Shown: positions 33,031-60,095, counted from the first letter of the stretch. The stretch is DNA of 60,095 nucleotides from Deltaproteobacteria bacterium (GCA_020845895.1 JADLEX010000120.1:1-60095); one strand, 5' to 3'. The notes: a model not told the origin generated them from the letters alone. A program made the numbers and translations.

Positions 33031-33109
33031 CCAGACTCCCGTAGAAAGAAACAGCATTAACGCAAAGGCCGCATCGCGACCAGTCGCCCAACAGGCGCGG
33101 GGTTCTCAC

Positions 33110-33439
33110 CTACATCGAGGTCTTTTCCGCCTGCTCGAGCATCTGCATTCCGTGGACGAGCGACGCCCCGCCGCGAATGGCGACCGCGACGTGCACCGCC
33201 TCGGTCATCTGCTCCAGGTCGGCCCCGTTCTTCAGGCTTTCCGTCGTGTATGCATCGATGCAATACGGGCACTGCACGGCGTGCGCGACGGCAAGCGCGA
33301 TCAGGGCTTTCTCGCGAACGGACAGCGCGCCGTCGGCAAAGACCGCGCCGTAGTAGTCGAAGAATTTCTTCCCGAGTTCGGGCTGTCCCTTCGCGATTCT
33401 CGCGAATTCTTCGAGGTGTTCGTTTCGATAGTACGACAT
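33110..33439 (-). CDS. AhpD-like carboxymuconolactone decarboxylase family protein, ArsS-associated
   Basis: A 109-residue protein with one CMD/AhpD domain. AVQCPYCIDAYTTESLKNG contains the CxxC peroxidase-type active site plus the downstream acidic residues. Small AhpD-like proteins with CPYCIDAYT are recurrent neighbours of arsS (annotated as arsenosugar biosynthesis-associated peroxidase-like). The start has GGAGG about 8 nt upstream. It is the first gene of the operon with arsS and the porin, downstream of an 18-bp palindrome that may control it. Activity (thiol peroxidase or arsenic-related) is inferred. Confidence 0.87.
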   Translation of the reverse strand: MSYYRNEHLEEFARIAKGQPELGKKFFDYYGAVFADGALSVREKALIALAVAHAVQCPYCIDAYTTESLKNGADLEQMTEAVHVAVAIRGGASLVHGMQMLEQAEKTSM

Positions 33440-36918: not shown

Positions 36919-36926
36919 GGCTCATA

Positions 36927-37040
36927 ATTTGAGACCGGCGGTGTCGGGGAAGTCCGGTGAGAGTCCGGCGCAGTCCCGCTACTGTGACAGGCGGTCATTT
37001 CCCCGCCTGAAGTCAGGATACCGATCCGCCCGGTGCAAAT
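36927..37040 (+). promoter_or_regulatory. Cobalamin riboswitch aptamer
   Basis: This leader carries the hallmarks of the cobalamin (B12) aptamer. The core GGGAAGTCCGGTGAGAGTCC is followed by GCGCAGTCCCGCTACTGTGA and the B12-box-like AGTCAGGATACC (37011-37022). The ends close a P1 helix: ATTTG at 36927-36931 plus ACCGG pair with CGGT and CAAAT at 37031-37040. It lies just downstream of a promoter and 150 nt upstream of the first gene of the B12 operon. High cobalamin normally represses such operons. Confidence 0.92.
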
Positions 37041-37111
37041 CGTTCGCTCTTCGGCAGAAAGAGTGGATTTGCTTCGGAGCAATCCCACGCCTCTTTCCAA
37101 CCGGAAAGAGG
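37035..37111 (+). promoter_or_regulatory. Riboswitch expression platform with mutually exclusive hairpins
   Basis: Three foldings compete. GCAAATC (37035-37041), the 3' strand of P1, can instead pair with GATTTGC (37066-37072). The latter can alternatively fold into a local hairpin (37065-37073 with 37078-37085, loop TCGG, one bulged T). A third hairpin, CCTCTTTCC / GGAAAGAGG with a 4-nt loop, lies at about 37090-37111. Only a weak T-rich run follows it, so control could be terminator- or translation-based; the ribosome binding site at 37183-37187 is about 70 nt further on. Confidence 0.6.
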
Positions 37112-40682: not shown

Positions 40683-41908
40683 TTCCACTCTACGTCCGCG
40701 CGCTCGCGGTCCTCCTGTTGTTGGCCGTCGCGTCGCTGTTCGCCGCTTGCAGCGCGGGCGACGGCGGCGACGACGACGACGCCGATGACGGCGAATTCGC
40801 CATGGGCGACGACGACGATGCCATGATCGACGCGGCGAACGCCGACTGGACCGACACGGGCGTCGATGTCGCCGCGGGTGACACGATGAAGATCGACGCG
40901 GCGGGCGAAGTCCGGCTCGACGGCGACGCGGACCCGGTCGGCCCTGACGGCGGCGAGGCGTGCGGCCTGAGCTGTCCCATGCCCGAGGGTGCGCGCGGCG
41001 CGCTGGTGGGGCGGATCGCCGAGGGTACTCCGTTTCTCGTCGGCGCGTCGTTCGATGGCGTGGCGGGCGCGTCCGGAAGGCTTGCGCTGATCGTCAATGA
41101 CGACTCCTACGCTGACAACAGCGGCGGATTCGACGCGACGATCGAGGTGATCCCGGGCGACGACGATGCACTCCCCGCGTCCTGCCGACCGGCCAACTTC
41201 GCGATCCAGATCACCGAGTTCGACCCAGGCGTGCTGGCCGGTTTCGGGCAGAATGACGCTCCGGACAATGTACTCGGGCCGCCCGCCGGTTTCGGCGCAT
41301 ACGCCCCGCAAGCGGGACCGGACGAGCTGCTGAGCCTCGGAGAGGGCGGATCGATCACGCTCAAGATGGGTCGCGAGATCCTCGACGGCGCGGGTCCCGA
41401 TTTCGTCGTCTTCGAAAACCTGCTCTACTGGGGCGGCGAGTTCACGAATGCGTACACCGAGGCGGCAATTATCGAAGTGAGTGAAGACGGCCTGACGTGG
41501 ACGCGCTTTCCGTTCGATTTCGTCGCCGACGGACCGAAAGGGCCGTTGGACGTTCCGGACACCGTGCCGGGCAACTTCATCGGATTCGCCGGGATCGAAC
41601 CGACAAACGCGAATTGCGACCCGAACGGCGACGGGCTTTATAACGACATGATCGATCCGCTCGATCCCTCCGTTTCGGGCGGGGATCTGTTCGACCTCGC
41701 CGATATCGGCATCGCGGCGGCCCGGTACGTGCGCATCATCGACACGGGACACGCCGAGCGGGCTCCCGGCACGGAGACCTACGACGAGGACGGCGATCTC
41801 GTGACCGACGGCGGCAACCTGCTCCCGGCTTACGAAGGCATCCAAGGTTTCGACCTCGACGCGATCGCCGTGCTGAACGGCGGAGATGAACTGGAGATCG
41901 ACGAATGA
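40679..41908 (+). CDS. Lipoprotein with PA-IL-like domain and B12-operon cell-surface domain
   Basis: A 409-residue predicted lipoprotein. ATG 40679 overlaps the btuF stop. The lipobox FAAC gives Cys24, followed by a short Asp-rich linker. Residues ~55-160 resemble a PA-IL (LecA)-type galactose-binding domain (WTDTGVDVAAGDTMKIDAAG, GALVGRIAEGTPFLVGA, GRLALIVNDDSYADNSGGF). Residues ~175-405 match the cell-surface-protein type seen near B12 genes (GPDFVVFENLLYWGGEFT, IIEVSEDGLTWTRFPFDF, ARYVRIIDTGHA), probably a jelly-roll. The product may bind sugar-bearing surfaces or a corrinoid; I infer a role in uptake from the operon. Confidence 0.8.
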   Translation: MIPLYVRALAVLLLLAVASLFAACSAGDGGDDDDADDGEFAMGDDDDAMIDAANADWTDTGVDVAAGDTMKIDAAGEVRLDGDADPVGPDGGEACGLSCPMPEGARGALVGRIAEGTPFLVGASFDGVAGASGRLALIVNDDSYADNSGGFDATIEVIPGDDDALPASCRPANFAIQITEFDPGVLAGFGQNDAPDNVLGPPAGFGAYAPQAGPDELLSLGEGGSITLKMGREILDGAGPDFVVFENLLYWGGEFTNAYTEAAIIEVSEDGLTWTRFPFDFVADGPKGPLDVPDTVPGNFIGFAGIEPTNANCDPNGDGLYNDMIDPLDPSVSGGDLFDLADIGIAAARYVRIIDTGHAERAPGTETYDEDGDLVTDGGNLLPAYEGIQGFDLDAIAVLNGGDELEIDE

Positions 41909-42435
41909 ACGCGGCGGTAATTCTCGTCACGGGCGGCGCACGCAGCGGCAAGAGCACGCGCGCGCTCGAAATCGCCCGCTCGTATCCAAGACGCGTCATG
42001 ATCGCTGCCGCGGTTCCCTTCGACGACGAAATGACCCGGCGTATCGAAGCGCATCAGAGCGAACGCGGTGAGGAGTGGGTGACCATTGAGGAACCGCTGG
42101 ATCTCGCGCGAGCGATCAAGGGGATTCCCTCATCGTCCTCCGCGGAAGCCACCCTCGTGGTCGTCGATTGCCTGACGGTGTGGTTGGGCAACCTCTTTCA
42201 CGAAGAACCCGACAACGTCGGTGCGCGGATCGACTCACTGGTCGCGGCCGTGGCGTCGTGCCCGCATGACCTCGTCATCGTCACCAACGAAATCGGCTGG
42301 GGAGTCGTTCCCGCGGACGACGGAACACGGCAGTTCCGGGACGTCGCCGGTCGTCTCAACCAGCGCATCGCGCGCATTGCGACGCGTGTCGAACTGGTTG
42401 TGAGCGGAATCCCCGTCACGATCAAGGGCAACTAA
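41905..42435 (+). CDS. cobU: Adenosylcobinamide kinase / adenosylcobinamide-phosphate guanylyltransferase
   Basis: A 176-residue bifunctional enzyme. The P-loop LVTGGARSGKSTRALE is at residues 6-21. LVVVDCLTVWLGNLF and VIVTNEIGWGVVPAD are the conserved CobU/CobP segments. It phosphorylates adenosylcobinamide and then attaches GMP to give GDP-cobinamide. It overlaps the upstream gene by 4 nt (ATGA). This is the first of four nucleotide-loop assembly genes in the operon. Confidence 0.95.
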   Translation: MNAAVILVTGGARSGKSTRALEIARSYPRRVMIAAAVPFDDEMTRRIEAHQSERGEEWVTIEEPLDLARAIKGIPSSSSAEATLVVVDCLTVWLGNLFHEEPDNVGARIDSLVAAVASCPHDLVIVTNEIGWGVVPADDGTRQFRDVAGRLNQRIARIATRVELVVSGIPVTIKGN

Positions 42436-43496
42436 TGGACGACACCCGGATGCGCAACACGCTCGCGGCGATTCCCGGCGTGGACGATTCGCTCGGTCCC
42501 CGGCTGCGCGCCCGGCTCGATGATCTCACCAAGCCACGCGGGAGCCTCGGTGTGCTCGAGACGATCGTCGAGCGGGTCGGGCTCATCCAAAACACGGATC
42601 GGCCGCACGTGCGTCGGATGCGGATCGTGACGTTCGCGGCCGATCACGGTGTCGCCGCACGGGGCGTTTCGGCATACCCCGCCGCCGTCACGCCGCAGAT
42701 GGTGCGCAACATGATAGCCGGCGGCGCGGCCGTGAATGTGCTCGCGCGGCATGTCGGCGCCGAAAACGTGGTCGTCGATATCGGCGTGAACGATCCACTC
42801 GACAACGCGCCCGGGCTCGTCCGCCGAAAGGTCGCGTACGGCACGCGCGACATGACGATCGGTCCCGCGATGACGCACCGAGAGGCGCGCGCGGCGATCG
42901 ACGCGGGGATCGGCCTCGCCAACGACGCCGCGGACGAAGACGTCACTCTGCTCGGCACCGGCGAGATGGGGATTGGAAACACGACGAGCGCGGCGGGCTT
43001 ATTCGCCGAACTGCTGGGACTTCAACCGCGTGAGATCGTCGGTCGCGGCACGGGCATCGACGATGAGACGCTGGCGCGAAAGATCGACGCGGTGGAGACC
43101 GCTCTGCGGATCAATGCGCCCGACGCGGGCGATCCCGTGGCCGTTCTCGCTGCATTCGGCGGTTTCGAAATCGCGGGCATCTGCGGGCTGATCCTCGGCG
43201 CGGCGGCGCGGCGGATACCCGTCGTCGTGGACGGCTTCATCTCAACGGCGGGCGCGCTCGTGGCCGAACGTCTCGCGCCACGTTCGCGCGACTTCATGAT
43301 CTTCAGCCATCTCTCCGACGAGCGCGGCCACGCCGTTGTGCTCGACGCGATGGGTGTGCGCCCGATTCTGAATCTCAATCTGCGTCTCGGCGAAGGAACC
43401 GGGGCGGCATTGGCTTTTTCGCTGATCCACGGCGCAATCAAACTCGTGAACGAAATGGCGACGTTTTCCTCCGCCGGCGTCGCGGACCGCGCGTGA
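42435..43496 (+). CDS. cobT: Nicotinate-nucleotide--dimethylbenzimidazole phosphoribosyltransferase
   Basis: A 353-residue enzyme with the CobT signatures: TKPRGSLGVLE near the N-terminus, FAADHGVAARGVSAYP, GEMGIGNTTSAAGLFAELLG and the C-terminal NLRLGEGTGAALAF. It makes alpha-ribazole-5'-phosphate from NaMN and the lower-ligand base. The start shares one base with the cobU stop (TAATG). No dimethylbenzimidazole synthesis gene (bluB or bza) is in the window, so the base may be imported or made elsewhere. Confidence 0.96.
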   Translation: MDDTRMRNTLAAIPGVDDSLGPRLRARLDDLTKPRGSLGVLETIVERVGLIQNTDRPHVRRMRIVTFAADHGVAARGVSAYPAAVTPQMVRNMIAGGAAVNVLARHVGAENVVVDIGVNDPLDNAPGLVRRKVAYGTRDMTIGPAMTHREARAAIDAGIGLANDAADEDVTLLGTGEMGIGNTTSAAGLFAELLGLQPREIVGRGTGIDDETLARKIDAVETALRINAPDAGDPVAVLAAFGGFEIAGICGLILGAAARRIPVVVDGFISTAGALVAERLAPRSRDFMIFSHLSDERGHAVVLDAMGVRPILNLNLRLGEGTGAALAFSLIHGAIKLVNEMATFSSAGVADRA

Positions 43497-44311
43497 CCGC
43501 CGCGGTTCACGGCACGCCTCGCTCGGGTGCACTTCGTCATGCGTTGGTCGCGTTTCAGTTCCTGACACGCATTCCCATGCCGCGAGATCTGAATCCCTCG
43601 CCCGGCGACCTCGGTCGCGCCACCGGATGGTTCCCGGTCGTGGGCGTCGTCGTCGGGGCGCTGATCGCGGCGGTGGGGTCCGCCGCCATGGGAATCGGAC
43701 TGTCGCCGGGAATCGCGGCGGTCATCGCGGTCGGATTCGGCTTGGTCGTCACAGGGTCGTTTCACGAAGACGGTCTGGCGGACAGCGCCGACGCGTTCGG
43801 CGGCGGCTGGAATCGCGAGCAGGTGCTCACGATCATGCACGACAGCCGCATCGGCAGTTACGGTTCGGGGGCGGTGACCCTGCTCTTCGCGGCGCGCCTC
43901 GCCGCGCTGTGGTCGATCGATCCCGCCGCGTGGACGGCTTCGCTCATCGCGGCGCACACCGTCGCGCGGTGGACGTCGGTCCACCTCCTGCACACGAAAG
44001 AATACGCACGTCGCGACGGTGAAGCCCCGGGTTTCGGCAAGCCGATCGTCGATGGGATGTCGGGCGCGTCGTTTTGGTTCGCCACCGTCGTTACGACCGT
44101 CGTCGCCGTTTTTGCGTTCGGCCTCGCCGGGTTCGTCACCCTCGTTGCGGCGCTCGTTCTGTCGGAACTGTGGGGACGGTACTGCCGCCGGCGGATTGGC
44201 GGAATCACCGGCGACGCGCTGGGCGCGGTGAACGTCGCGGTGGAGGTCTTCACTTTAGTGGGCTGCGCCCTGCGTTTTCCCGCAACCGTCTCACCATGGA
44301 TCACGCCGTGA
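43493..44311 (+). CDS. cobS: Adenosylcobinamide-GDP ribazoletransferase (cobalamin synthase)
   Basis: A 272-residue integral membrane enzyme. FQFLTRIPMP near the N-terminus, HEDGLADSADAFGGGWNREQVLTIMHDSRIG and the following multi-helix region are the CobS hallmarks, including Asp residues for metal binding. It joins GDP-cobinamide with alpha-ribazole (phosphate) to complete the nucleotide loop. The start is GTG 43493, overlapping the cobT stop (GTGA). Confidence 0.95.
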   Translation: MTAAVHGTPRSGALRHALVAFQFLTRIPMPRDLNPSPGDLGRATGWFPVVGVVVGALIAAVGSAAMGIGLSPGIAAVIAVGFGLVVTGSFHEDGLADSADAFGGGWNREQVLTIMHDSRIGSYGSGAVTLLFAARLAALWSIDPAAWTASLIAAHTVARWTSVHLLHTKEYARRDGEAPGFGKPIVDGMSGASFWFATVVTTVVAVFAFGLAGFVTLVAALVLSELWGRYCRRRIGGITGDALGAVNVAVEVFTLVGCALRFPATVSPWITP

Positions 44312-44961
44312 AAGGACCGGACGCCATCTGGCTCGTGCGCCACGGACCGATCGATGTGGAATACGGCGTATGCGTGGGATCGACGGACGTGCCGTTGGCC
44401 GCGGCCGAAAATGCCTTGGTGCGGGCGAAAGCGCTTGCCTCGCTGATTCGCTCCGCCGATGCCGTGTATTCGAGCGATGCCCGGCGCGCGTACAACACCG
44501 CGCAAGCCTTGGCCGCCGTCATCAACGCGCCGCTCGAAACGACGCCCGATCTGCGGGAGCTCGCCTTCGGCGCGTGGGAGATGCGGGCGTGGGCTGACAT
44601 CGAGCGGGACGATCCCGCGAATTACGCCCGGTTCATGGCCGATTGGAGAAGCGAGCGCACGCCCGGCGGGGAATCGTACGGCGACCTTGAAGCCCGCGTC
44701 CGCAATTGGTGGACTCGAATCGCGCAACGCCATGACGGTGGGAGCGTCGTCGTCGTCGGTCACGGTGGATCGCTGCGCATCCTCGCGTCGCACTTGCTTT
44801 CCATGACCGCCGAAGAGGCGATTTTCATGCCGTTCGGGCGCGGACACGCGGCGATCATCCGTCCTGCGACAGGCGCGCGCGTGCTGGATATCGATCCATT
44901 CGAGCCGTCCGATGTCGAGGAAATTGAGAAGCCCGACCAGCACCTCACCGCGCGACCGTGA
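44296..44961 (+). CDS. cobC: Histidine phosphatase, probable alpha-ribazole phosphatase
   Basis: A 221-residue member of the histidine phosphatase superfamily. AIWLVRHGPIDVEYGVCVG has the catalytic RHG, RELAFGAWEMRAW and the second catalytic His in VVVGHGGSLRIL follow. As the last gene after cobU-cobT-cobS it most likely removes the 5'-phosphate from alpha-ribazole phosphate or cobalamin phosphate (CobC). I use ATG 44296, which overlaps cobS by 16 nt and sits just before the conserved start. Its 3' end overlaps the convergent lipoprotein gene by 17 nt. Confidence 0.88.
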   Translation: MDHAVKGPDAIWLVRHGPIDVEYGVCVGSTDVPLAAAENALVRAKALASLIRSADAVYSSDARRAYNTAQALAAVINAPLETTPDLRELAFGAWEMRAWADIERDDPANYARFMADWRSERTPGGESYGDLEARVRNWWTRIAQRHDGGSVVVVGHGGSLRILASHLLSMTAEEAIFMPFGRGHAAIIRPATGARVLDIDPFEPSDVEEIEKPDQHLTARP

Positions 44962-47023
44962 TCGACGCCTTGCCGTCCCCACCGATCGTCGCCTCATAGG
45001 GCGCCTGCATCGCGCCCGCAATTGCGTCGTAGACCCACACGCTGACGGTTTCGCCCGGCACGCCGGCCAGGTCCACGTTGACGGCTTCGCCGGCGAGTTC
45101 CATCGACACAAAACGTCGGTCGGCGACGGTCACGAATTTTTCCACCTCGCCGATCAGCGCGAGACCGTTCGGCCAGACCGGCGCGACGACGAAGTAGGCG
45201 AAATCGTAGAGGTCGGGGATCGAGGGCCAGTGCGTCACGTCGAGCGGCTGCCACGCCGTTCGGGATCTCCAGTCGAAGACGACGTACTCGCCCGTCGCGC
45301 CCAACTCGCGCGGCAGGTCGAGGTGGAGGTCGGTCACCTGTTCCGGAAACACGAACATCGAGCCGGCGTCCTGCAAACCATAGGACACGTAGGGCCAGAT
45401 GCGGTCGAGCGCCGTGCGTTGCGGGTGTTCGCGCGCGAGGTGGAACGCCGCCGCATAGTGCCAGCGCCCGAGTTTGCCGCGATCCGACCACGTGTGCACC
45501 GTGTAGGGACGGCGATGGTCGAAGAACATCGCGTCGATGGGCGCGGCGGGGCGGTCGGGTTTGAGGAGTAGGCCGTCCGCGCGGCAGGTGCGTCCGATGA
45601 TTTCGACATCGGCTTCGCCCACGCGGTCGCCGACTCCGACCATCCCCGCCGAAAGCGTGCTGATGAGCGCTTCGGCCTCGCCCGCCCGCTCGGTCGTCCA
45701 GAAATTGTCCTTGAAAGGCCAAACGCCGAGCGCCCACGCGATCATGGACGTCGTATGGAACTGCGGCCAGAACGACTCCTTCGAGACGTCGCGCCGGTAG
45801 TCGATGGACGTACGCGCCGTGGTGGGCGACGAGCGATCAACCACGTCGAGCAGGTGCCCGGGGCTCGCCATGCACCACTGCGTCGTGAGGCCCGCATCGC
45901 CGGCCGCGCCATCGATCCACGACATCCACTCGGCCGTCCGGCCCGGCGCTTCGCGCAGATACGACATGCCGTCCCACTGCGCAAAGAGCCAGTCCTGCTC
46001 GTACGTCGCCGCGCCCCAGTTCACCGCGTTCGCCATGAACTCGTCGTACACGTCACGCGAAAGCGGCATCGCCATCTCGGCCTCTTCGACGAATTCGTAC
46101 TCGTCGCGATAGTCGTTTTCGCTCGCGAACCAGCGATTGTGCAGGACGAGCGGAAGGCCGAGTTCGTCCTGAAACGCGGCGAGGCCGTCGGGGAACATCG
46201 CCGGGATCGGCTCCCATCGAATGAGCCCGCCGGGGGAAATCAGGCCCGGAACCTTGAAGTACCACCAAGAATCGAGCTGGAGGTAACCGTAGGGAATCCC
46301 CCGCGTGTCCGCGTCGTCCTTCACGGCGAGCAGCGTGTCCGCCTCGTTCATCCCCGGTTCGGTCTGGTAGTAGTAATAGGCCCCGTTGTCCGTCCAGTAA
46401 CCGAGATACCCGAGGCCGACGTCGGCATAGCGATCGGGTCGCGCCTTGCCGTGCTCGGCGCGCATCAGATCGCCCCAGTACTCCACCGCGGCATTGATTC
46501 CCCGTCCGCGCGCGAGAATGAACCGGTGCGTCCACCCGGCGGGAATCGCGTCGATTTCCCCCGCAACGCCCGAGACGATATTGCCGCGTCGGAAATTCAC
46601 GACGCTTTCGAAGAATTGGTCGAGCGGCGAAAACACGATCGTTTCGCCGTCATCGGCGTAAAGAATCAGAGGTCCGTGCGAAGCGACCGCGCCAAGGTGC
46701 GGGGGCGCCATGGGCGACACCTGAAACGACATGACGTGCGTGAATTTTTCCTCGACGGGGATCAGGTCGTATTCGAACGACGGCTTGTCGAATCGTCCGG
46801 TTGCGATCCCCGTCCGCGCACCGTGATGCTCGTGAACGATGATCTCATACGAAAAGATGTCCGGCGCGTCGTCGTCGATGTCGTCGTCCGAATCGTCGTC
46901 GCCCGGCTCGTTTCCGGGCTCCTCCGTATAAATTTCAACTCCGTCGTCGAACTCGCAGGCGACGAGCGTCGCCAACAGAAACACGACGATTCCCACGACC
47001 GCGCATAACGAAACCGAGCGCAT
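44945..47023 (-). CDS. Lipoprotein with glycoside-hydrolase-like TIM barrel
   Basis: A 692-residue predicted lipoprotein with a strong ribosome binding site (GGGAGGA). The lipobox TLVAC gives Cys23 and a short Asp-rich spacer follows. The main part resembles clan GH-D enzymes: a beta-rich N-terminal part, then GLGYLGYWTDNGAYYYY, PYGYLQLDSWWYFKVPG and ATYEQDWLFAQWDGMSY, where acidic residues at barrel strand ends could be catalytic. The C-terminal ~100 residues look like an all-beta domain (YVVFDWRSRTAW). It may cleave an alpha-linked glycan at the cell surface. The GH family and catalytic residues are not certain. Confidence 0.75.
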   Translation of the reverse strand: MRSVSLCAVVGIVVFLLATLVACEFDDGVEIYTEEPGNEPGDDDSDDDIDDDAPDIFSYEIIVHEHHGARTGIATGRFDKPSFEYDLIPVEEKFTHVMSFQVSPMAPPHLGAVASHGPLILYADDGETIVFSPLDQFFESVVNFRRGNIVSGVAGEIDAIPAGWTHRFILARGRGINAAVEYWGDLMRAEHGKARPDRYADVGLGYLGYWTDNGAYYYYQTEPGMNEADTLLAVKDDADTRGIPYGYLQLDSWWYFKVPGLISPGGLIRWEPIPAMFPDGLAAFQDELGLPLVLHNRWFASENDYRDEYEFVEEAEMAMPLSRDVYDEFMANAVNWGAATYEQDWLFAQWDGMSYLREAPGRTAEWMSWIDGAAGDAGLTTQWCMASPGHLLDVVDRSSPTTARTSIDYRRDVSKESFWPQFHTTSMIAWALGVWPFKDNFWTTERAGEAEALISTLSAGMVGVGDRVGEADVEIIGRTCRADGLLLKPDRPAAPIDAMFFDHRRPYTVHTWSDRGKLGRWHYAAAFHLAREHPQRTALDRIWPYVSYGLQDAGSMFVFPEQVTDLHLDLPRELGATGEYVVFDWRSRTAWQPLDVTHWPSIPDLYDFAYFVVAPVWPNGLALIGEVEKFVTVADRRFVSMELAGEAVNVDLAGVPGETVSVWVYDAIAGAMQAPYEATIGGDGKASITVAR

Positions 47024-50176: not shown

Positions 50177-50270
50177 ATTGCGATCCCGCATTCCTGTGAG
50201 GTGCGAAATTGACCGGTGCGTCCATGCGTGTACACTTTCCGCATGGTCCATACTGCGATGCCGAACGTCG

Positions 50271-51581
50271 ATGCGTAGCGACTGCCCCACATGCGGCGCG
50301 GTCGTCGATGCCCACCTCGAGTACGAGCCCGACGGTGCGTTTCTCGTGAAACGGTGCGATGCGCACGGCGAATCGCGGACTCTCTTCACGAAAAACGCTG
50401 AATTCCACCGGCGGGCGCGAGCCCTGAACAATGACGGCCTGTGGCCGGAAGGCGCGCTCGACGTATTTGGCGCCGCGGCGACGCAAATGCTCACGACATT
50501 CGCCATCGACGTCACCACGCGCTGCAACATGACGTGCCCGACGTGCGTGAGCAATGCCGACACCGCCAAGGGATCGGTGGACCGGCCCCTCGACGAGATC
50601 CTCTCGTGGGTGCCGGACTTTTCGAGGGACCGCCGACGATTCCGCCCGAACATCTCGCTCGTCGGCGGCGAGTCGACTCTGCGCGAGGATCTGCCGGACA
50701 TCATTCGCGGGGTCATCGCCAAGGGACTGCTTCCTCGACTGAATTCGAACGGACTCACGTTGCGTAACCCCGAACTGCTCGACCGCCTTTGGGACGCGGG
50801 CCTTCGCTGGGTGATCCTTCAGTTCGACGGATTCACCGGTGTCGGCTCGCAGGAATTTCGCGGCAAAGACCACACGCGCGCCAAGCTGGACGTGGTTGAG
50901 AAACTCGCCTCGCGTGGATTCTTCATTCACCTCGCCGTCATGGTTCAGCAGGGCGTCAACGAAACCGAAGCGGCGGATATCCTGCGTTACGCGCTGGAGC
51001 GGCCCAACGTGCGGCGGGTCTCGTTTTATCCGCGAAGCCGAATCGGCCGTTTCGCCGCGCCCGACGGGGGATTCACCGACGTCGGCGATCTCGTCCGCGA
51101 ACTCGACCGGGGAACGAGCGGAGAACTAACGACCGAGGACCTGCTGGACGCCAAGCGGATCGGGCACTGGATGTACCGTCTGACCCGGCACCCCATGTTC
51201 TTCCAGCGGGCGTGCATTTACCCGTTCCTTCTGTTGGGACATCGCGGGCGCATGATTCCCGTTTCGCGGCTGTTTCGTCCGGCGTGGGCGCTGCGTCACC
51301 CGGGCGCTCTATGGACGATGATCAAGGCTCTACCCGCGCTGTTCCGGCCCGATCACGGCCGCTATCCGGCGAATCTGCTCTACGTGAACATCGAGAAGTT
51401 CTACGACCGCGACGCATTCGATTTCGAGCAGTCTCGAAACTGCCATCACGTCTATCTCACCGACAAGGGCGCGTTTCCCTTCTGCGTGTACAATCAATTC
51501 CATCGCGACAACGCGCCGGTTCCGGTCGATTATCTGGGCGTTCGGGAAGAGGGCCCCGAGTATTCCGCGAAATCCGCCTGA
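50271..51581 (+). CDS. Radical SAM protein resembling tetraether-lipid synthase-type enzymes
   Basis: A 436-residue enzyme. The N-terminal 60 residues form a zinc-ribbon-like module (DCPTCGAVV, then LVKRCDAHGESRTLF), as found in Tes and MJ0619-type radical SAM proteins. The core has DVTTRCNMTCPTCVSNAD with cluster cysteines 85, 89 and 92. A further C-terminal Cys pair lies in NCHHVYLTDKGAFPFCVYN and may bind an extra cluster. Members of this group join or modify lipid chains or methylate pterins, but sequence alone cannot say which. I chose ATG 50271, directly before the first Cys module. The next gene, 142 nt downstream, encodes a GT-C glycosyltransferase. Confidence 0.78.
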   Translation: MRSDCPTCGAVVDAHLEYEPDGAFLVKRCDAHGESRTLFTKNAEFHRRARALNNDGLWPEGALDVFGAAATQMLTTFAIDVTTRCNMTCPTCVSNADTAKGSVDRPLDEILSWVPDFSRDRRRFRPNISLVGGESTLREDLPDIIRGVIAKGLLPRLNSNGLTLRNPELLDRLWDAGLRWVILQFDGFTGVGSQEFRGKDHTRAKLDVVEKLASRGFFIHLAVMVQQGVNETEAADILRYALERPNVRRVSFYPRSRIGRFAAPDGGFTDVGDLVRELDRGTSGELTTEDLLDAKRIGHWMYRLTRHPMFFQRACIYPFLLLGHRGRMIPVSRLFRPAWALRHPGALWTMIKALPALFRPDHGRYPANLLYVNIEKFYDRDAFDFEQSRNCHHVYLTDKGAFPFCVYNQFHRDNAPVPVDYLGVREEGPEYSAKSA

Positions 51582-51723: not shown

Positions 51724-53403
51724 ATGAAATCGACGACCCAACACCGACTCTCTCGGATCCTCGCCATCTGCGAGATCTCGCTGCTTCTCGGGTACGTCGC
51801 GATCATCTGGATTTGGAGGTGGCAGCAAATCGGGATCGCACCGGTCGATCCCGACGAGGTGTTCTTTATTGGCGGCGTCGATCGCATGGCACGCGGGCTG
51901 CTCCCCTACATCGATCACGCCGAAGCCCACATGCCGCTCGTTTCGCACCTCCTGGTCCCGCTCTGGAAAGTCGTGCGTGAACAACCCGACTTTCTCGTCC
52001 CCTTTCGGATCCTCGAGTGGTGCGTCGTCGGCTTGGCACAATTCGCGCTGGGAGCCGTCGCGTGGCGATTCGGACGCGTGCGCGCGGGCGCTTGGACGCT
52101 CGGATTGTTGAATGCGTTCGGCTTCGCCCTCGAGCGATCCGTGCAAATCCGTTTCGAACCCTTCGCGACAATTCTCGTGCTCGCGGCGTTCGGTGTCTTC
52201 GCGACGCGCCGGAAACCGGGATTCGGTATCCGCGAAGGCGTTGCCGCTGTTCTCATGGGACTGGCGACGGCGAGCCATGTGAGCGGACCATTCCTCGTCG
52301 CCGCATTTGCCCTGACCCTGCTCGCGCTCGATGGCGGATCGGCGGGGGTCCGAGCGGCGCGATCCTCGATCGCATTTGGGGTCGTCGCCGTCGGGACATG
52401 GCTTGGGGTGTTCGCAATCGTGCTCGGAGGAAGACTCTGGACCGGTCTCGCGGCACTTCGTGACGGCTTCGACTTCGATGCGGTTTATCAAGCAGCGTTG
52501 AAAAGCGATCTGACGTTTTTTCTGCCCGGAATTCTCCGAGAAAGCCCCGTGACGGCGGCGTTATGCATCCTGCTGTTGATCACCGCGCACGACGCGATCC
52601 TGCGTCAGCGCCACCGGGAGCCCGCACTCGTCCTCGCGGTTCTGCTCGCCGACTGCTCCCTAGCCATCGTCCTCACGCGAACTCCGGACTATCCGCAGCG
52701 ATACCTGCCGCTCGCGACCTATGGTGCGCTCGTCGCCGGTCTCGAGGTCGCGCGTCGAACGAAAGTGGCCGTTGAGGGCGTCGCAGGGCGACTTGTTCCG
52801 ATCCTTGCGTTACTGGCCGCGCTCGCCGTCGTGGTTCAGGCTCGATCTGTTCTTTCGGCTCCGAATCTGACCGATCCTGAGTTCGGCGTGAAGCCCGACG
52901 ACGAGCCCGTTCCTCGATTGTCCGACGGATATCGCATTCTTCCGGGTGATCTTTTGCTCTGGTGGGATGCCGGCCGCGCCGCACCCGACGCTTTTCGATC
53001 CCGATCGATCGAAGAATACCGCTCCGTCGTTCGATTCCTGAAAAAGCACTCCGGTCGGGACGACCGCGTTTTCACGGATTGGATGAATCCGCCGATCCGG
53101 GAACTCCCTGCGCTGAACCACCACGGCGGCATGATCGACGTTTTCGAGCGCTCGCGCGAATTGGCGGCATCGCCGGCGGTGCAATCGGCGTATCGGCGAT
53201 ACAATCCCGACTACCGATCGTCCACGCGGGCGGAAGAGTCTTTCGCAATACTGTTTGATCGGACGAATACCCGACTCATCGCCCTCGACGGCAGCATGGG
53301 GCGTGCGTTTCGAAACGACGGAGAGTTCCGTCGCTGGATGACGGAGCGATATGATTTGATGGTGGAACCGCGCAGCGAGATCGTCTTCGCCGTTCGGCGA
53401 TGA
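51724..53403 (+). CDS. GT-C type membrane glycosyltransferase (GT39/ArnT-like)
   Basis: A 559-residue polytopic membrane protein with about ten hydrophobic helices between residues 10 and ~370. The first loop contains VDPDEVFF near residue 40, the acidic motif that GT39/GT83-type enzymes use for catalysis with polyprenyl-phosphate sugars. A periplasmic C-terminal domain follows (~370-559). It would transfer a sugar from a lipid carrier to a lipid or protein on the periplasmic side of the inner membrane. The neighbouring glycan-free context (radical SAM genes) hints at a lipid acceptor, but this is speculative. Confidence 0.8.
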   Translation: MKSTTQHRLSRILAICEISLLLGYVAIIWIWRWQQIGIAPVDPDEVFFIGGVDRMARGLLPYIDHAEAHMPLVSHLLVPLWKVVREQPDFLVPFRILEWCVVGLAQFALGAVAWRFGRVRAGAWTLGLLNAFGFALERSVQIRFEPFATILVLAAFGVFATRRKPGFGIREGVAAVLMGLATASHVSGPFLVAAFALTLLALDGGSAGVRAARSSIAFGVVAVGTWLGVFAIVLGGRLWTGLAALRDGFDFDAVYQAALKSDLTFFLPGILRESPVTAALCILLLITAHDAILRQRHREPALVLAVLLADCSLAIVLTRTPDYPQRYLPLATYGALVAGLEVARRTKVAVEGVAGRLVPILALLAALAVVVQARSVLSAPNLTDPEFGVKPDDEPVPRLSDGYRILPGDLLLWWDAGRAAPDAFRSRSIEEYRSVVRFLKKHSGRDDRVFTDWMNPPIRELPALNHHGGMIDVFERSRELAASPAVQSAYRRYNPDYRSSTRAEESFAILFDRTNTRLIALDGSMGRAFRNDGEFRRWMTERYDLMVEPRSEIVFAVRR

Positions 53404-53426: not shown

Positions 53427-54821
53427 TCAGTTCGCCAGAACCTTGCGGAAAAAGAAGCGAACGAGAAACGGCAGGGTTTCCGAACGATTCGGCATGCGCG
53501 CGATCAGGCGATACAGCCGCGACGGACGAAGGTAGAACTTCAGATACGCTGTGCGCCTCGCACGATTGAGCGTCTTCAGCGGGATCTCGCTCAGGTTGTT
53601 AGCGTCGTCCCAGAAGGACTGAAAGGTCTCTCCCACGGGCGTGTCGACGCCGAGGTTTCGCGCCATTTTCTCCATGGGTGTGCCCGCGTAGGGCGTGGCG
53701 CGATAGAGCCCGAAAGTATCGAGCTTCGAAGTCGCAGCGAAGCGAATCGTTTCGCGCATCTCCGACGCGGTTTCGGTCGGCAGCCCGATGATGAAATTGC
53801 CGTGCGCCGAGATGCCGAGGCTCGACGCCTTGCGGATGACGTGCTTCGCCTTTTCCAGATTCAGGTTCTTTTTCATCGTTTTTTGAAGACGCGGCGACGC
53901 GGTTTCGACCGCGATCATCACACGGTACACACCCGCTCGTGCCATCAGTTCGAGCATGTCGTCCGTCGCGAGGTTCGCATGGAAACCGTTGGGAATCGCC
54001 ATCGGCACGCGCAGGCCCTTCGCGAGCAGGGACTCGAAGATGTTGCGCACGCGATCCGGATCGAGATTGAACAGATCGTCGATGACGAGAATGTCGCGGA
54101 CGCCGTGCTTACGCACGAGTTCTTCGATCATGGAGACGACATAACCGGCGGAACGCGGGCGATACCCGTGGCCCATCGATACGTGGCACCAGGCGCAGTG
54201 GTAGGGGCATCCGCGCGCGGTTTCGATCGCCATGTATCGCGGGTGCCTGCTGATGATGCTGATGCGCGGCAGTCCTTCGTACGCACCGACGTCGATGAGA
54301 TCCCAGGCCGGCATCGGCCAGCGGTCGAGGTTCGCCTCGAAGGGCCGCTCGGGATTCTCGCGCACGCTTTCGCCGTCAAGAAACGCGAGACCGGGAATAT
54401 CGCGAAATTCCGAATTCGACTCCAGCGCTCGGATCAGGTCGAGGAACGTCTGTTCCCCCTCGCCGACCACCGCGTAATCCACGTCCGGGTTCGCCGCCAC
54501 GTCGCGACCGTAGAGCGTTGCGTGAATCCCGCCGCAGACGATCTTCACGTCGCGACGTTTCGCTTTCATTCGCGTCGCAAGATCGTACATGACCGGGGCG
54601 TCGAGTCCGTGCGCGCTGAATCCCACGATTTCCGGAGTGAACTCGTCGAACGCGCGCATCGGCGCTTCGAGATCCCGCCATTTCGGGCGCATGTCGTGGA
54701 GACGCACGTCGGCATTGGCTTCCGATCGAAGTACCGACGCAATGTGCATAAGCCCCAGCGGCTGCGAGCGTTCGACGTGTCGCTCGTGACTGGCGGCCTG
54801 GACGAGCAGAACGCGCGTCAT
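53427..54821 (-). CDS. B12-binding domain radical SAM protein (array copy 1)
   Basis: A 464-residue protein. The N-terminal ~150 residues form the B12-binding-type domain (PLGLMHIASVLRSEA, IVCGGIHATLYGRDVA, DYAVVGEGEQTFLDL). The radical SAM core has ARGCPYHCAWCHVSMG near residues 203-212 and IAVETASPRLQKTMKKN. The C-terminus has the KFYLRPSRLYRLIARMPNR pattern shared by the whole array. It is the last gene of the run on the minus strand, 22 nt after the stop of the next copy, so the two are surely cotranscribed. It converges with the GT-C gene (23 nt between stops). The substrate is unknown. Confidence 0.88.
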   Translation of the reverse strand: MTRVLLVQAASHERHVERSQPLGLMHIASVLRSEANADVRLHDMRPKWRDLEAPMRAFDEFTPEIVGFSAHGLDAPVMYDLATRMKAKRRDVKIVCGGIHATLYGRDVAANPDVDYAVVGEGEQTFLDLIRALESNSEFRDIPGLAFLDGESVRENPERPFEANLDRWPMPAWDLIDVGAYEGLPRISIISRHPRYMAIETARGCPYHCAWCHVSMGHGYRPRSAGYVVSMIEELVRKHGVRDILVIDDLFNLDPDRVRNIFESLLAKGLRVPMAIPNGFHANLATDDMLELMARAGVYRVMIAVETASPRLQKTMKKNLNLEKAKHVIRKASSLGISAHGNFIIGLPTETASEMRETIRFAATSKLDTFGLYRATPYAGTPMEKMARNLGVDTPVGETFQSFWDDANNLSEIPLKTLNRARRTAYLKFYLRPSRLYRLIARMPNRSETLPFLVRFFFRKVLAN

Positions 54822-54843
54822 GAGCGCGCACTTTCCCCGCGCT

Positions 54844-56238
54844 TCACCACATCAGCGCCTTTCGCACCCACATGCCGAAGAGTTGGGGCAGGAGCCGTCG
54901 ACGATTGGGGAGCGCGGAGACGATCGAAAGGATGCGCCGGGGCGAAAGGTAGAATCGTCGATACGCCTGGCGTTTCAGGCGATTGAGGACGCCGTCGGGC
55001 ACGAGCGAAACGTTGACCGCGTTGGACTGGTGAAACTCCATGGTTTCCAGATCGTTTCCGGGGTCCTGTCCGACACTCGCTGCGATTTCGTGAAGGTCGG
55101 TACCCTTGAACGGGATCACGCGGTAAAACGCGGCGGTGTGGAGGCGCGACTTGAGGGCGAAGTCCACCGTCGCGCGGGCCTCGTCCTCGGTCTCCGTCGG
55201 GAAGCCGAGCATGAACGACGCGTGCACCATCACGCCCTGTTTGCGCGTGAACTCGATGATGTGCCGGAGTTTTTCGAGCTTGTTGTTTTTGTGAATGAGC
55301 TTTTGAAGGCGATTCGACGCCGTCTCGACGGCGTACATGCAACGGAACATGCCCGCCTGCTTGAGCAGCAGAACGCTCTCCTCCGTCATGATGTCGCCGC
55401 GCAGTCCGATGGGAAAGCTCATGCCGATCTTGAGACCCCGGTCGATGATGAGCCGCGCGATCTCGTTGACGCGTTTCGCGTCGGCGTTGAACAGGTCGTC
55501 CATGATGACGAAATCGCCGACCCCGTACTCGTTCACCAGATGCTCCATCTCGTCCACGACGTTCTCGGGCGATCGCTTGCGCCAGCGCTTTCCCAGCGTC
55601 GTGTGGCAATACGAGCAGTGGTAGGGGCACCCGCGGCTGGTGACGATGGCGGCGTAACGCCGATGCGCGTAAATCACGCCGCATCGCGGGATGTCGTAGT
55701 ACCGGTCGAGATCGAGCAAATCAAACGCGGGATAAGGGACGTTGTCGAGATCCGTGATCCAATGGGCCGACGCGTTTCGCAGCGGACCATTGGGTCCTCG
55801 CCGAATGAGATTCGGAACGTCCTCGAAATTCTGCCGCCCTCGCAGCGCCTCGACGAGCATGCCCATCGCCTGCTCGCCCTCGTGCGTGACGACGTAATCG
55901 ACCGGCATGCGTTGCAGAGACTCTTCGCCGTAGTTGGTCGCGTGAGCGCCGCCGACAACCATCGGCGTATTCGGAAACGCCTCGCGCAGCCGATCGGCGA
56001 GAAGAGCCAGAGCCGGCGCATCGGGGGTCATCCCCGACAGGCCGATGAGGTCCGGTCGAAACGCGCGCGCCTGTTCGACCGCCGGCGCCGCGTCCTGAAC
56101 GCCGAGTTGCATGTCGAAGAACCCGACCTCGCACGAGAAGCGTTCGCGCAGCCATGAGGCGAGGTAGAGCGGGCCGAGCGGCATCGAGCGCTCGGTTTCG
56201 GGGGAATATCGAGCGGACTGAATCAGGAAGACCCGCAT
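54844..56238 (-). CDS. B12-binding domain radical SAM protein (array copy 2)
   Basis: A 464-residue protein of the same length and layout as copy 1. It has the B12-binding-type domain (PLGPLYLASWLRERF, MVVGGAHATNYGEES), the cluster motif in SRGCPYHCSYCHTTLGK near residue 205, YAVETASNRLQKLIHKNN, and a C-terminal YRRFYLSPRRILSIVSALPNR. It is the closest relative of the truncated copy at the right edge, which shares MHG/VHxSFxLGFPTET-type stretches. It is separated by 137 nt from the upstream copy, so a promoter could lie there. The substrate is unknown. Confidence 0.88.
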   Translation of the reverse strand: MRVFLIQSARYSPETERSMPLGPLYLASWLRERFSCEVGFFDMQLGVQDAAPAVEQARAFRPDLIGLSGMTPDAPALALLADRLREAFPNTPMVVGGAHATNYGEESLQRMPVDYVVTHEGEQAMGMLVEALRGRQNFEDVPNLIRRGPNGPLRNASAHWITDLDNVPYPAFDLLDLDRYYDIPRCGVIYAHRRYAAIVTSRGCPYHCSYCHTTLGKRWRKRSPENVVDEMEHLVNEYGVGDFVIMDDLFNADAKRVNEIARLIIDRGLKIGMSFPIGLRGDIMTEESVLLLKQAGMFRCMYAVETASNRLQKLIHKNNKLEKLRHIIEFTRKQGVMVHASFMLGFPTETEDEARATVDFALKSRLHTAAFYRVIPFKGTDLHEIAASVGQDPGNDLETMEFHQSNAVNVSLVPDGVLNRLKRQAYRRFYLSPRRILSIVSALPNRRRLLPQLFGMWVRKALMW

Positions 56239-56375
56239 GGGCTCCGCGTGGCGGCTCCTTTCAATGACGAATGTACCCCGAAAAGTTAGCGCCGAACCGA
56301 TTTACGCACAATGAAGCAGACTACCGAAAACGCGGTTCCGGCGAAGATTCGGCCGCCTTCCGGCCGGCCCGGCGG

Positions 56376-57860
56376 TCAACTCGCGGTCGCGGTGCCGGCC
56401 ACCGATTGCGCCTTGCTTGGGCCAAACCCGCGAATCAGAACCGCGAGACCCGACAAGCCGCGTCGAAGATCACGCCAGGATCTGAGAGAACGCAGTCGGT
56501 CCAAGACGTAGCCCGGCCGCAGCGAGAAGGCCCGATAGAATTTCAGGAGTTCGTATTCCAGCTCGGCATCGGACAGGACCTCGCTGCCCAGTGGCGGAAC
56601 GAAGCTTCCCGAAGGACTGCGCGCGAATTCCTTCCAGTAATCGGTGGCGATCCGGCCGTCCGCGAGCGCGTCGTCGTACAGTCGCGTCGCGGGATACGGA
56701 ACGTACAGCGCGGCGTGAACCATTTCCGGCCCCAGTCGGACTGCCGTTCGCAGGCTTCGCCGAATCTGCGCGCGCGATTCACCCGGATTCCCGAGCATGA
56801 AATAGGCGATGGTGCGCAGGCCCACCTTATGCGCCATGGCGAAGCTCTCGCGGACCGCGTCGAGGCCCGTTTTTCGTCCGAGGTTCTTCAACACATCCTT
56901 GTCGCCCGATTCCACGCCGAACGTCACCAGATCGCAGCCCGCCGAACGCATTTCTGCGAGCGTCGTCTCGTCAACCATGCCCGGCGTCACGCGCGCCATC
57001 CACGGAATACCAAGCCCCTTTCGCGCAATTTCGCGGCAAATACCGTGAACCCGGTCCTTTCGAACCGTGAAGAGTTCGTCATAGAACATCAGGTAACGCA
57101 CGCCGAGGCCCGCCGCGTAGGCCATCTCCTCCGCGACGCGCTCCGGGCTGCTTGCGCGCCATGTCTTGCCGGTCGGCGACAGCGCGCAGTAGTGGCAGTG
57201 AAACGGACACCCGCGGCTCGTGACCATGATTCCCACGGGAGCGAGTCGCGTGATGAGCGAAGAGTATCGTTCGATGGGCGCCAGATCCCACGCGGGCATC
57301 GGGAAACGGTCGAGGTCGCGGACCGCGGGCGCTGGGGTGAAGCCCTCGGCGCTCATGCCGGACGCCAGCACGCCGGGTATTTCCGCGGATGCGACGGACT
57401 CGAATCCCCCGTCTCGCCATGCGGCGAGCAGTCGCGGTAGCGATTCCTCGGCCTCGCCCGAGAGAATCATGTCCACCTCGGGTTGCGCGAGGGTTTCGGT
57501 TGGATAGATGAACGGCTGCACGCCCCCGACGACGACCTTCGCACGTGGCGCGCCTGCTCTCGCGGCCCGAGCGGTCGCGAGCGCATCAAGATAGGTGAAG
57601 GTCGTACTCGAAATGCCGACCAAGTCGGGTTGCCGACGCTCGACCTCGTGCGCGATCTCGACATCGGAGAGACCGAGCGCATGCGCGTCGAGCAGCGAGA
57701 CATTCCATCCGACGACTTCGCGCGCCGAGGCCGCGGGATAGAGGATGCTGATCGGCGGATTCACGCCGCGAAGGTCTTCGATGGACGCGGGGAGGTTCGA
57801 GCGCGGAACACGCCGCTCGGGCGGATTGACGAACAGAACGTGAAGCGGCGAATTGCTCAT
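56376..57860 (-). CDS. B12-binding domain radical SAM protein (array copy 3)
   Basis: A 494-residue protein. The B12-binding-type domain covers the first ~160 residues (PPISILYPAASAREV, VVVGGVQPFIYPTETL, DMILSGEAEESLPRLL). Cluster cysteines lie in SRGCPFHCHYCALSPTGK near residues 217-226. FGVESGDKDVLKNLGRKTG follows, and the C-terminus has KFYRAFSLRPGYVLDRL. It starts 10 nt after the stop of copy 4. Sequence similarity to the other copies is clear in the motifs but lower elsewhere, so it probably differs in substrate. Confidence 0.88.
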   Translation of the reverse strand: MSNSPLHVLFVNPPERRVPRSNLPASIEDLRGVNPPISILYPAASAREVVGWNVSLLDAHALGLSDVEIAHEVERRQPDLVGISSTTFTYLDALATARAARAGAPRAKVVVGGVQPFIYPTETLAQPEVDMILSGEAEESLPRLLAAWRDGGFESVASAEIPGVLASGMSAEGFTPAPAVRDLDRFPMPAWDLAPIERYSSLITRLAPVGIMVTSRGCPFHCHYCALSPTGKTWRASSPERVAEEMAYAAGLGVRYLMFYDELFTVRKDRVHGICREIARKGLGIPWMARVTPGMVDETTLAEMRSAGCDLVTFGVESGDKDVLKNLGRKTGLDAVRESFAMAHKVGLRTIAYFMLGNPGESRAQIRRSLRTAVRLGPEMVHAALYVPYPATRLYDDALADGRIATDYWKEFARSPSGSFVPPLGSEVLSDAELEYELLKFYRAFSLRPGYVLDRLRSLRSWRDLRRGLSGLAVLIRGFGPSKAQSVAGTATAS

Positions 57861-57870
57861 CGGCGGAGCT

Positions 57871-59346
57871 TTACCCGATCGAGGACGGTTCGGTCGCGGG
57901 TCCCATCAACACCGTGTTCGATGGGGATTTGGAGCCGAGCGACTTCCGGGCCATGGTCAACAGAACACCGAGTCCCTGAAGGACAGTTTTCAACTCGCGT
58001 TTCGGGTGCCGCAACATGCGCAGGAAACGGCGCGCCACGGTCGCGGGGCGGAAGTAGAATGACAAATTCGCCCAACGGACGAGCGCTCGCATCTGGGCTT
58101 CGGTGTACTTCGCCTCGAACAGCAGCTTTTCGGTGTCGATCGAGTAATCCTCCCAAGAGGAGTGATGGATACGCCGGGCACGGTCGAGGTCATCGAAGAG
58201 CGGGCTGCCCGGCAGCGGCTTGAAGACATTGAACGACACAAGATCGGGCGCAAGCCGGATCGCGTCGCGAACAGTCTTTTTGCAATCGTTCATGTCCTGC
58301 CACGGAAAACCGAGGATGAAGTTGACCTTCGCCTCGATGCCGTGGCGGCGTGTCATGCGGACGGCCGATCGGGCTTCCTCGAAGCAAATGTTCTTCTTCA
58401 GGTTCTTGAGTTCCGCATCGTCCGTGGACTCCACCCCGTACGTAATGTGGTAGCAACCCGCCCGGCTCATCAGCCGCAGCATCTCGGCGTCCACGCGGTC
58501 GACCCGGCTGAAACAGTTCCAGGTGATATCCACGCCGCGATCGAGAATTGCCTCGCACAGCGCGGCGATCTTCTTCGGCGCGACCGTTGGACCTTCGTCT
58601 TCCAGACGGAAATCGCGAATTCCAAAACTACGGTCGCACTCCCCGACCTCGGCCAGAAAGTTTTCGGGGCTGCGGAAACGCACCCGATCGAGAAAGACCG
58701 ACTTTGAACAGTAAGTGCATTTGTAGGGGCAGCCGCGCGAATACAGGATGCCGGTGGACGGCAGGCGGTAGTAGTTGCCCGGATCGGGCATGTATGACGC
58801 GACGGGGATGAGTGTTCGGTCGGGAAACGGCAGGTCGTCCAGTTGAGACTCGGCCGCCCTCACCGGTCCAAGTCGGACCTCGTCGTCCACGCGCCGCGCG
58901 AGTCCGTCGATCGCAGGAACTTCATCGAGGTCTCGGAGAGCCCGTGCCAGTTCGACGACCGTCGCCTCCCCCTCGCCGACCGCAACGTAGTCGAACGCCG
59001 ATTCCTCACGAAGTGTACGCTCCGGCAGCGCCGAGGCATGAAAGCCGCCGAGGATCGTTGCGGTCCGGGGATTCGCCTCCTTCGCGAGCGCGGCGAGACG
59101 CGACGCAAATTCCACGTTGTGTGTGTATGCCGTCAGCCCGACAAGATCCGGCTGGAAATCGAACACCGCGCGTGAATATTCGGCGTCGCTGAGATTTCGA
59201 AACGCCAGATCGAGAATCCCGACGTCGGGGAATCCCGCATGTTTCAGCGACGAAGCGAGGTACGCGAGCGATAGTGGAATTTCCTGCCCGCCCAGCGCGA
59301 GCAGCCCCCGCGAGGTATTCGGAGGTTGGATGAGCAGGATCTTCAT
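57871..59346 (-). CDS. B12-binding domain radical SAM protein (array copy 4)
   Basis: A 491-residue protein. MKILLIQPPNTSRGLLALGG and EIPLSLAYLASSLKHAGF open the B12-binding-type domain, and TILGGFHASALPE plus DYVAVGEGEATVVEL complete it. The radical SAM motif is SRGCPYKCTYCSKSVF near residues 204-211, and YGVESTDDAELKNLKKN follows. The C-terminus has LSFYFRPATVARRFLRML. ATG 59346 is chosen because the domain begins there; the frame extends 43 codons further without domain content. A candidate promoter lies 84 nt upstream. It is the first gene of the pair with copy 3. Confidence 0.86.
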   Translation of the reverse strand: MKILLIQPPNTSRGLLALGGQEIPLSLAYLASSLKHAGFPDVGILDLAFRNLSDAEYSRAVFDFQPDLVGLTAYTHNVEFASRLAALAKEANPRTATILGGFHASALPERTLREESAFDYVAVGEGEATVVELARALRDLDEVPAIDGLARRVDDEVRLGPVRAAESQLDDLPFPDRTLIPVASYMPDPGNYYRLPSTGILYSRGCPYKCTYCSKSVFLDRVRFRSPENFLAEVGECDRSFGIRDFRLEDEGPTVAPKKIAALCEAILDRGVDITWNCFSRVDRVDAEMLRLMSRAGCYHITYGVESTDDAELKNLKKNICFEEARSAVRMTRRHGIEAKVNFILGFPWQDMNDCKKTVRDAIRLAPDLVSFNVFKPLPGSPLFDDLDRARRIHHSSWEDYSIDTEKLLFEAKYTEAQMRALVRWANLSFYFRPATVARRFLRMLRHPKRELKTVLQGLGVLLTMARKSLGSKSPSNTVLMGPATEPSSIG

Positions 59347-59429
59347 GCGTCGAGTAGGGTCGGACCGCGATTTCGGTGTCATCACCGACGCGCGACCGAC
59401 CGATCGCCTCCGAAAGACAGCTTGACGTA

Positions 59430-59457
59430 ATCTTAACGCGAAGCGGGAAAACGACAA
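59430..59457 (-). promoter_or_regulatory. Candidate promoter for radical SAM copies 4 and 3
   Basis: On the minus strand TTGTCG (59452-59457, 4/6) and TAAGAT (59430-59435, 4/6) are 16 nt apart, in the 182-nt gap between array copies 4 and 5. Confidence 0.35.
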
Positions 59458-59528
59458 CGGGGGAAAGCCCACCAAGCTCTCTCATCGTGGCCAGGAATCC
59501 GCGGCGGTCGCCCCGAAGCCTTCAACCT

Positions 59529-60095
59529 TTACGCGCCGGTATACGCGCCCGCCGATCTGGGCGCCGCGGGCGCCCACGCCTTTTCGAACCACATTCGCAG
59601 GAACATCGGCATGACGCGAATCCAGTACGGAAGAAACGCCAGCAGAGCCGTCACGCGGCGCGGCGACAGGTAGAAACGTCGCCATGCGTTTCTTCTGATC
59701 CGAACGAGTTCCTTCTCCGACATCAGCGATGGGTTGACGCCATGATCGAGTTTGTAATCGTACCCGGCCGGGTCATCGACGTTCACGGCTCCCGCAGCCA
59801 CGGCCTGCGCGTACATCTTCGTCCCCTTGAATGCGACCGCGCGGTGAAACGCCGCGGTGTGCAAATCCGATTCAAGGGCGGTTCGCACCGTCAATTCGGC
59901 CTCTTTCCGCGTTTCCGTCGGGAAACCGAGAATGAACGTTCCGTGGACAAGAATGCCGATTTTTCGGGCGTACCGAATCATGGCGAGGGTCTTTTCGACG
60001 TTGAGCCTCCGCCCCGTGAACTTCTGAAGCCGTGGCGACGCGGTGTCGATCGCAAACATGCAGCGAAACAGCCCCGCTTGCTTCAGCAAACGAAG
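59529..60095 (-). CDS. Radical SAM protein (array copy 5), N-terminus beyond window
   Basis: The last 188 residues of a radical SAM protein that enters from the right edge with no start in the window. What is visible is the second half of the barrel (GLFRCMFAIDTASPRLQKFTG, VHGTFILGFPTETRKEAELT) and the C-terminal WRRFYLSPRRVTALLAFLP segment. These match copy 2 (54844-56238) most closely. By analogy the missing part should hold the B12-binding domain and the three cluster cysteines. It is upstream of copy 4 on the same strand. Confidence 0.85.
   Translation of the reverse strand, partial: LRLLKQAGLFRCMFAIDTASPRLQKFTGRRLNVEKTLAMIRYARKIGILVHGTFILGFPTETRKEAELTVRTALESDLHTAAFHRAVAFKGTKMYAQAVAAGAVNVDDPAGYDYKLDHGVNPSLMSEKELVRIRRNAWRRFYLSPRRVTALLAFLPYWIRVMPMFLRMWFEKAWAPAAPRSAGAYTGA

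Follow-up and report, generated by a model that had tools for sequence, protein, structure and literature searches.

Head-to-tail genes for B12-binding type radical SAM enzymes, of separate lineages, at a contig end of an uncultured bacterium

The window analysed here is the entire contig C120, 60095 bases long, from an uncultured bacterium of high GC (guanine-cytosine) content. Its right part carries five genes for radical S-adenosylmethionine (SAM) enzymes of the B12-binding type, named A to E, all on the minus strand and in head-to-tail order. Gene A (53427-54821), a class-B (i.e., B12-binding type) radical SAM gene, and its paralog B (54844-56238) encode proteins of 464 amino acids each. 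Gene C (56376-57860; 494 amino acids) is of another lineage and gene D (57871-59346) is BchE-like, with 491 amino acids when counted from the conserved ATG at 59346 (MKILLIQ...), which is not the first start codon of the open frame, at 59475. Gene E (59529-60095) is truncated at position 60095, the assembled contig end, and only its C-terminal 188 amino acids are present. Four complete genes and a fifth cut by the edge had been announced in the first-pass annotation of this DNA, and the reading frames are indeed there. The genes are separated by 22 bp (A-B), 137 bp (B-C), 10 bp (C-D) and 182 bp (D-E) on a single strand; no promoter-like sites were found in these gaps and terminator-like sites are at background level. 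An operon-like gene layout is supported.

In the four complete proteins a B12-binding-type Rossmann domain precedes the radical SAM core, and both Pfam matches are above the curated cut-offs (PF02310, E-values 3e-16 to 3e-25; PF04055, 3e-21 to 3e-25, with 9e-21 for D). The CxxxCxxC motif is intact in A (CPYHCAWC), B (CPYHCSYC), C (CPFHCHYC) and D (CPYKCTYC). This domain order and motif agree with the earlier annotation for A to D. Gene E has a PF04055 match only (positions 94-164, i.e., the second half of the core), because its N-terminal part, and with it the CxxxCxxC region, falls beyond the contig end. The left end of another contig (C59) holds the N-terminus of a further B12-type radical SAM gene, with the sequence MKVLLVNPPVADRERGHPV...; it was rejected as the missing part of E since it is not of the A/B/E type. 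The C-terminal FYL/FxRP motif, also noticed in the first pass, is real in all five genes (FYLRP, FYLSP, FSLRP, FYFRP and FYLSP from A to E). It must be noticed, however, that it occurs in 39 of the 110 B12-type modules of the class (16 of 48 in the source genome), thus it marks a broad subset and not the array.

The relationships among the copies were studied with these 110 modules, taken from the source genome (G000) and six other genomes of the same class (G001 to G006; three families). A and B are 39% identical over their full length, B and E 47% over 171 amino acids, and A and E 41% over the existing part of E; copies 2 and 5 are therefore the closest pair, as first proposed, as far as E reaches. 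On the contrary, C, D and the distant copy F (34521-35984) are each about 30% identical to all others, and F, whose inclusion in the phylogeny had been advised, is not a close member of the group. In the tree, the clade of A takes in a single gene from each of G003, G004, G005 and G006 (support 100, five genomes; 45-54% identity). B groups with G003 and G005 (support 98) in a group that also holds E, weakly placed; the orthologs of B share 64% identity in G005, 59% in G003 and 50-53% in G004 and G006. D forms a clade with G001, G002, G004 and G005 (support 100, five genomes), and C with G001 and G004 (support 100; G001:C48 and G004:C10, 41-46%). Forcing the array copies and their orthologs into one clade costs 107 log-likelihood units and is rejected by the approximately unbiased test (p-AU 0.0001).

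Since C and D separate in the tree and the one-clade constraint is rejected, the array comprises three lineages: an old paralog family (A/B/E), C, and D. The first-pass view of a single expansion into five copies is not supported, C and D being of other lineages. Its variant, in which one gene was recently duplicated in tandem into five copies whose specificity shifted, has in its favour that A, B and E are true tandem paralogs (39-47%). However, C and D lie outside the clade, and the orthologs of A, B/E and D span other genera and families of the class, thus we regard it as very improbable; it is refuted for the five genes, and may still apply to B versus E, the latter being incomplete. Because A, B/E and D are each orthologous to genes in several other genera, their divergence is older than the radiation of the class. 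The A/B/E paralogs in particular predate the split of the class families in the tree, thus a recent duplication is not the right description for them.

The core of the array is kept in the relatives. The neighbours A-B, B/E-D or A-B-D recur across all seven class genomes: A and B are adjacent in G004, G005 and G006, and also in G003, where a third member of the family joins them; in G004 a stretch of 4.4 kb takes in A, B and D; and in G001 and G002 a B/E-type gene is directly followed by D. A/B/E-type genes are present in seven genomes of seven. D is single-copy in six of seven (45-53% identity to the five orthologs), and the genome without D is 84% complete. C shares a contig with B/E and D in G001; in the source genome it entered the group as a third lineage. 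The array as a whole is only partly conserved.

Adjacency must be read against the very high number of such genes. B12-type radical SAM enzymes are extremely numerous in the class, whose genomes have 45-74 B12-binding domains each, versus mostly fewer than 10 in other phyla (domains at E-values of 1e-10 or lower), where a few genomes reach 28, the highest number scored. With about 45 such genes in a genome, some may stand side by side without any common function. Arrays are indeed common in the source genome, where half of the B12-type domains (22 of 44) have another at 3 kb or less, and the ortholog of C is found elsewhere in G004. An even spread would predict 2.3 domains and not 22, i.e., the clustering exceeds chance, and the lineages A, B/E and D are adjacent again in four to six other genera. 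Chance neighbourhood is therefore considered quite unlikely as an explanation.

The reading that we favour, tentatively and as one slightly more doubtful than assured, is that the array is an operon-like set of class 1/class B radical SAM enzymes, of separate lineages, acting at different steps of one pathway. A, B/E and D have had separate identities since before the class radiation and have stayed adjacent, thus most likely they catalyse different steps of one pathway. By synteny only, several of the enzymes likely belong to the same pathway. Each enzyme would cleave SAM, the resulting 5'-deoxyadenosyl radical would attack an unactivated C-H bond, and the substrate of the pathway may be, as a guess, an envelope lipid or a lipid-linked glycan.

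On the left of the array, two genes of the plus strand deserve attention. The gene at 51724-53403, convergent with A, encodes a predicted membrane glycosyltransferase-like protein, of glycosyltransferase C (GT-C) type by general resemblance only; it has no Pfam or NCBIfam match, and a homolog (30%) lies near the array in G005. Gene T (50178-51581; PF04055 and PF23545) encodes a radical SAM protein related to Tes and TrsS with an N-terminal zinc-ribbon/rubredoxin-like motif; its true start is probably the ATG of MRSDCPTC. The N-terminal metal motif of Tes is CX2CX20CX2H (PMC9433317). T has the identical motif (CPTC-X20-CDAH), together with the radical SAM core and the three conserved C-terminal cysteines, but the stretch from its rubredoxin motif to the core is free of cysteines, so that those of the N-terminal auxiliary cluster (CX3CX2C) are lacking, and its bit scores stay below the cut-offs (164 of 490 for TrsS, 143 of 450 for Tes, NF045702). 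It is thus Tes-related and not a Tes. CX2CX20CX2H is also found in the T proteins of G001, G003 and G004, and the version of G005 has CxxD. T has one close ortholog per class genome (seven of seven), lies near B12-type radical SAM genes in G000, G001, G002, G004 and G006, and has two further adjacent copies of its type on G006:C292. It is possible that T belongs to the pathway of the array.

In six cases a glycosyltransferase of the PMT_2 family stands no more than 3 kb from a B12-type radical SAM gene, versus 1.3 expected (p 0.0015), and esterase or ceramidase-like genes stand beside A in G004 and G006. An envelope-bound substrate is weakly suggested, because of this proximity, of the kinship of T to the lipid-coupling Tes and of the esterase or ceramidase-like neighbours. 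In a rival reading, nucleotide- or lipid-linked sugars would be modified (by AprD4-like dehydration, epimerisation or C-methylation) before their use by GT-C glycosyltransferases. Among solved structures, AprD4 comes closest both in sequence (E-value 8e-37 with the A/B profile, 22% identity) and in template modelling score (TM-score 0.76), and PMT_2/DUF2079-type glycosyltransferases are found in the vicinity of the array in G001, G002 and G003, as well as of other B12-type radical SAM genes. However, the AprD4 model (NF033070; apramycin 1,2-diol dehydratase) scores far below its cut-off (at best 123 of 500 bits, for gene C) and nucleotide-sugar enzymes do not recur in the array neighbourhoods, thus tailoring of sugars or oligosaccharides seems unlikely, while keeping some credit.

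Several observations weigh against different steps of one pathway acting on an envelope lipid or lipid-linked glycan. The array is broken up in two genomes: in G005, 13 kb separate D from A-B, and G003 carries D on a different contig, together with two further B12-type radical SAM genes. The C of G004 sits elsewhere, next to another A/B-family gene. Radical SAM genes aside, the gene families near the array are each shared by at most two of the seven class genomes, which makes the guess on the substrate weak. The PMT_2/GT-C test was chosen after the neighbours had been seen and ignores contig edges. An amphipathic, membrane-binding C-terminal helix is no stronger in the array than in other modules (p 0.15) and was dropped as a mark of lipid substrates. 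Finally, AprD4 works without cobalamin, and its fold matches no worse than those of the cobalamin enzymes.

The remainder of the window contains an adenosylcobalamin (AdoCbl) riboswitch (36921-37074) and CobU-CobT-CobS (41905-44311), the last steps of cobalamin assembly. As a supply of cobalamin encoded in the same window they count in favour of the preferred reading; they show only that the cell handles cobalamin. A DUF3641 plus radical SAM protein, ArsS-like, is encoded at 31897-33057 (minus strand), with a separate small gene upstream at 33110-33439. In many predicted exported proteins (8235-8540, 17386-18693, 36055-36696 and 44945-47023), aspartate-rich runs of the DDDDSADDD type come right after the signal/lipoprotein region.

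The class also contains fused proteins with several radical SAM cores. A single open frame of the plus strand of G000 (G000:C17:52479-59564; L052 6480-13565) encodes 2361 amino acids with five intact CxxxCxxC cores, i.e., an N-terminal SPASM-type core followed by four B12-binding/radical SAM units. One-frame orthologs of 2288-2584 amino acids exist on G001:C218, G003:C110, G004:C20, G005:C64 and G006:C398, and in G002 the gene is in pieces. Since each position of the four B12-type modules forms its own clade over six genomes, each of a different genus (support 97-100), the fusion predates the class and the modules have kept separate identities. A carbamoyltransferase gene is directly upstream of the five-core gene in four genomes. 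At G000:C17:46001-48139 (plus strand; L052 2-2140), a single protein combines a carbamoyltransferase part with a radical SAM/SPASM core, and proteins similar to it are also encoded close to the five-core genes of G001 and G003. A second fused protein (G000:C158:34583-40774; L057 6584-12775; plus strand; 2063 amino acids) has three B12-binding/radical SAM units and, at its C-terminus, a SPASM-type core; similar modules occur in long open frames on G001:C169, G003:C119, G004:C34 and G006:C66.

No such fused protein was found outside the class in a survey of 386 genomes in which two candidates per genome were scored. FbiC consists of two fused radical SAM cores, and we know of no earlier case with five. 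Nothing relevant on such arrays or on multi-core radical SAM fusions was found in the open-access literature, which does not imply absence elsewhere. The five-core protein is more unusual than the array itself, and would be a new organisation of radical chemistry. One may speculate that the class runs radical SAM chemistry as assembly lines, in which enzymes with separately conserved specificities act in order on one molecule, either as neighbours or within a five-core fusion; this generalisation is offered as a possibility, and a rather unlikely one. B12-type radical SAM enzymes carry out C-H reactions that rank among the most difficult known, and the substrate has been established for only a handful of them. 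The class holds conserved multi-enzyme sets that are below the cut-off of every named family, and a set whose members keep separate identities while staying together is a good place to start looking for a modified lipid, glycan or natural product not yet described. The array alone is of moderate interest, and of more as part of a class with arrayed and fused B12-type enzymes.

As regards known families, none of the array proteins reaches the NCBIfam cut-off of any named family, including BchE, HpnJ, AprD4 and the ladderane type. D is the closest to BchE (TIGR02026; anaerobic Mg-protoporphyrin IX monomethyl ester cyclase), with which it shares the domain order and CxxxCxxC, and it matches nearly the full model with 245 bits; however, the cut-off is 481 bits, and A, B and C score 142-156. 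For C, the best model is HpnJ (TIGR03471; hopanoid radical SAM), of the same architecture, but with 157 of 578 bits. The model of the ladderane-type lipid B12 radical SAM proteins (TIGR04072) gives 104-109 bits for A to D, below the cut-off of 360. A modification of hopanoids or bacteriochlorophyll, HpnJ- or BchE-like, could be proposed from BchE and HpnJ as the best named models, but both cut-offs are missed. Moreover, squalene-hopene cyclase (PF13249) is found in only two of the seven class genomes, versus seven for A/B/E-type genes and six for D, thus a hopanoid substrate is unlikely from gene content, and the proposal as a whole is hardly credible.

The AlphaFold model of B has a predicted local distance difference test score (pLDDT) of 90 and its top PDB folds are MgmA, TsrM, OxsB, AprD4, TokK and CysS, with TM-scores up to 0.76; the model of D is weaker and gives the same list. 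Foldseek E-values of B and D versus the TsrM, OxsB, TokK and CysS folds range from 1e-16 to 2e-23. The class 1 cobalamin (Cbl)-dependent radical SAM enzymes have been reviewed by Avalos and Drennan (PMC13331322). Those with structures (TsrM, OxsB, TokK, CysS and MgmA) and the modelled array proteins have in common the Rossmann cobalamin-type domain, the radical SAM barrel and the C-terminal helices, but identity is 17-22% and the residue under cobalt is not shared: the position of OxsB Asn186 and TsrM Arg69 is His in A, Met in B and Tyr in D (HMMER alignments). This residue also varies among the known enzymes, and the binding of cobalamin by the array proteins is inferred. Non-methylating members of the B12-type group exist, namely BchE, OxsB, HpnJ and PbsB (PMC13142503), therefore methylation, the example given in the first pass, is just one option for the array enzymes. 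As a predicted fold, the array proteins fit class 1/class B radical SAM enzymes, and they are new members of this already known kind of B12-type enzyme.

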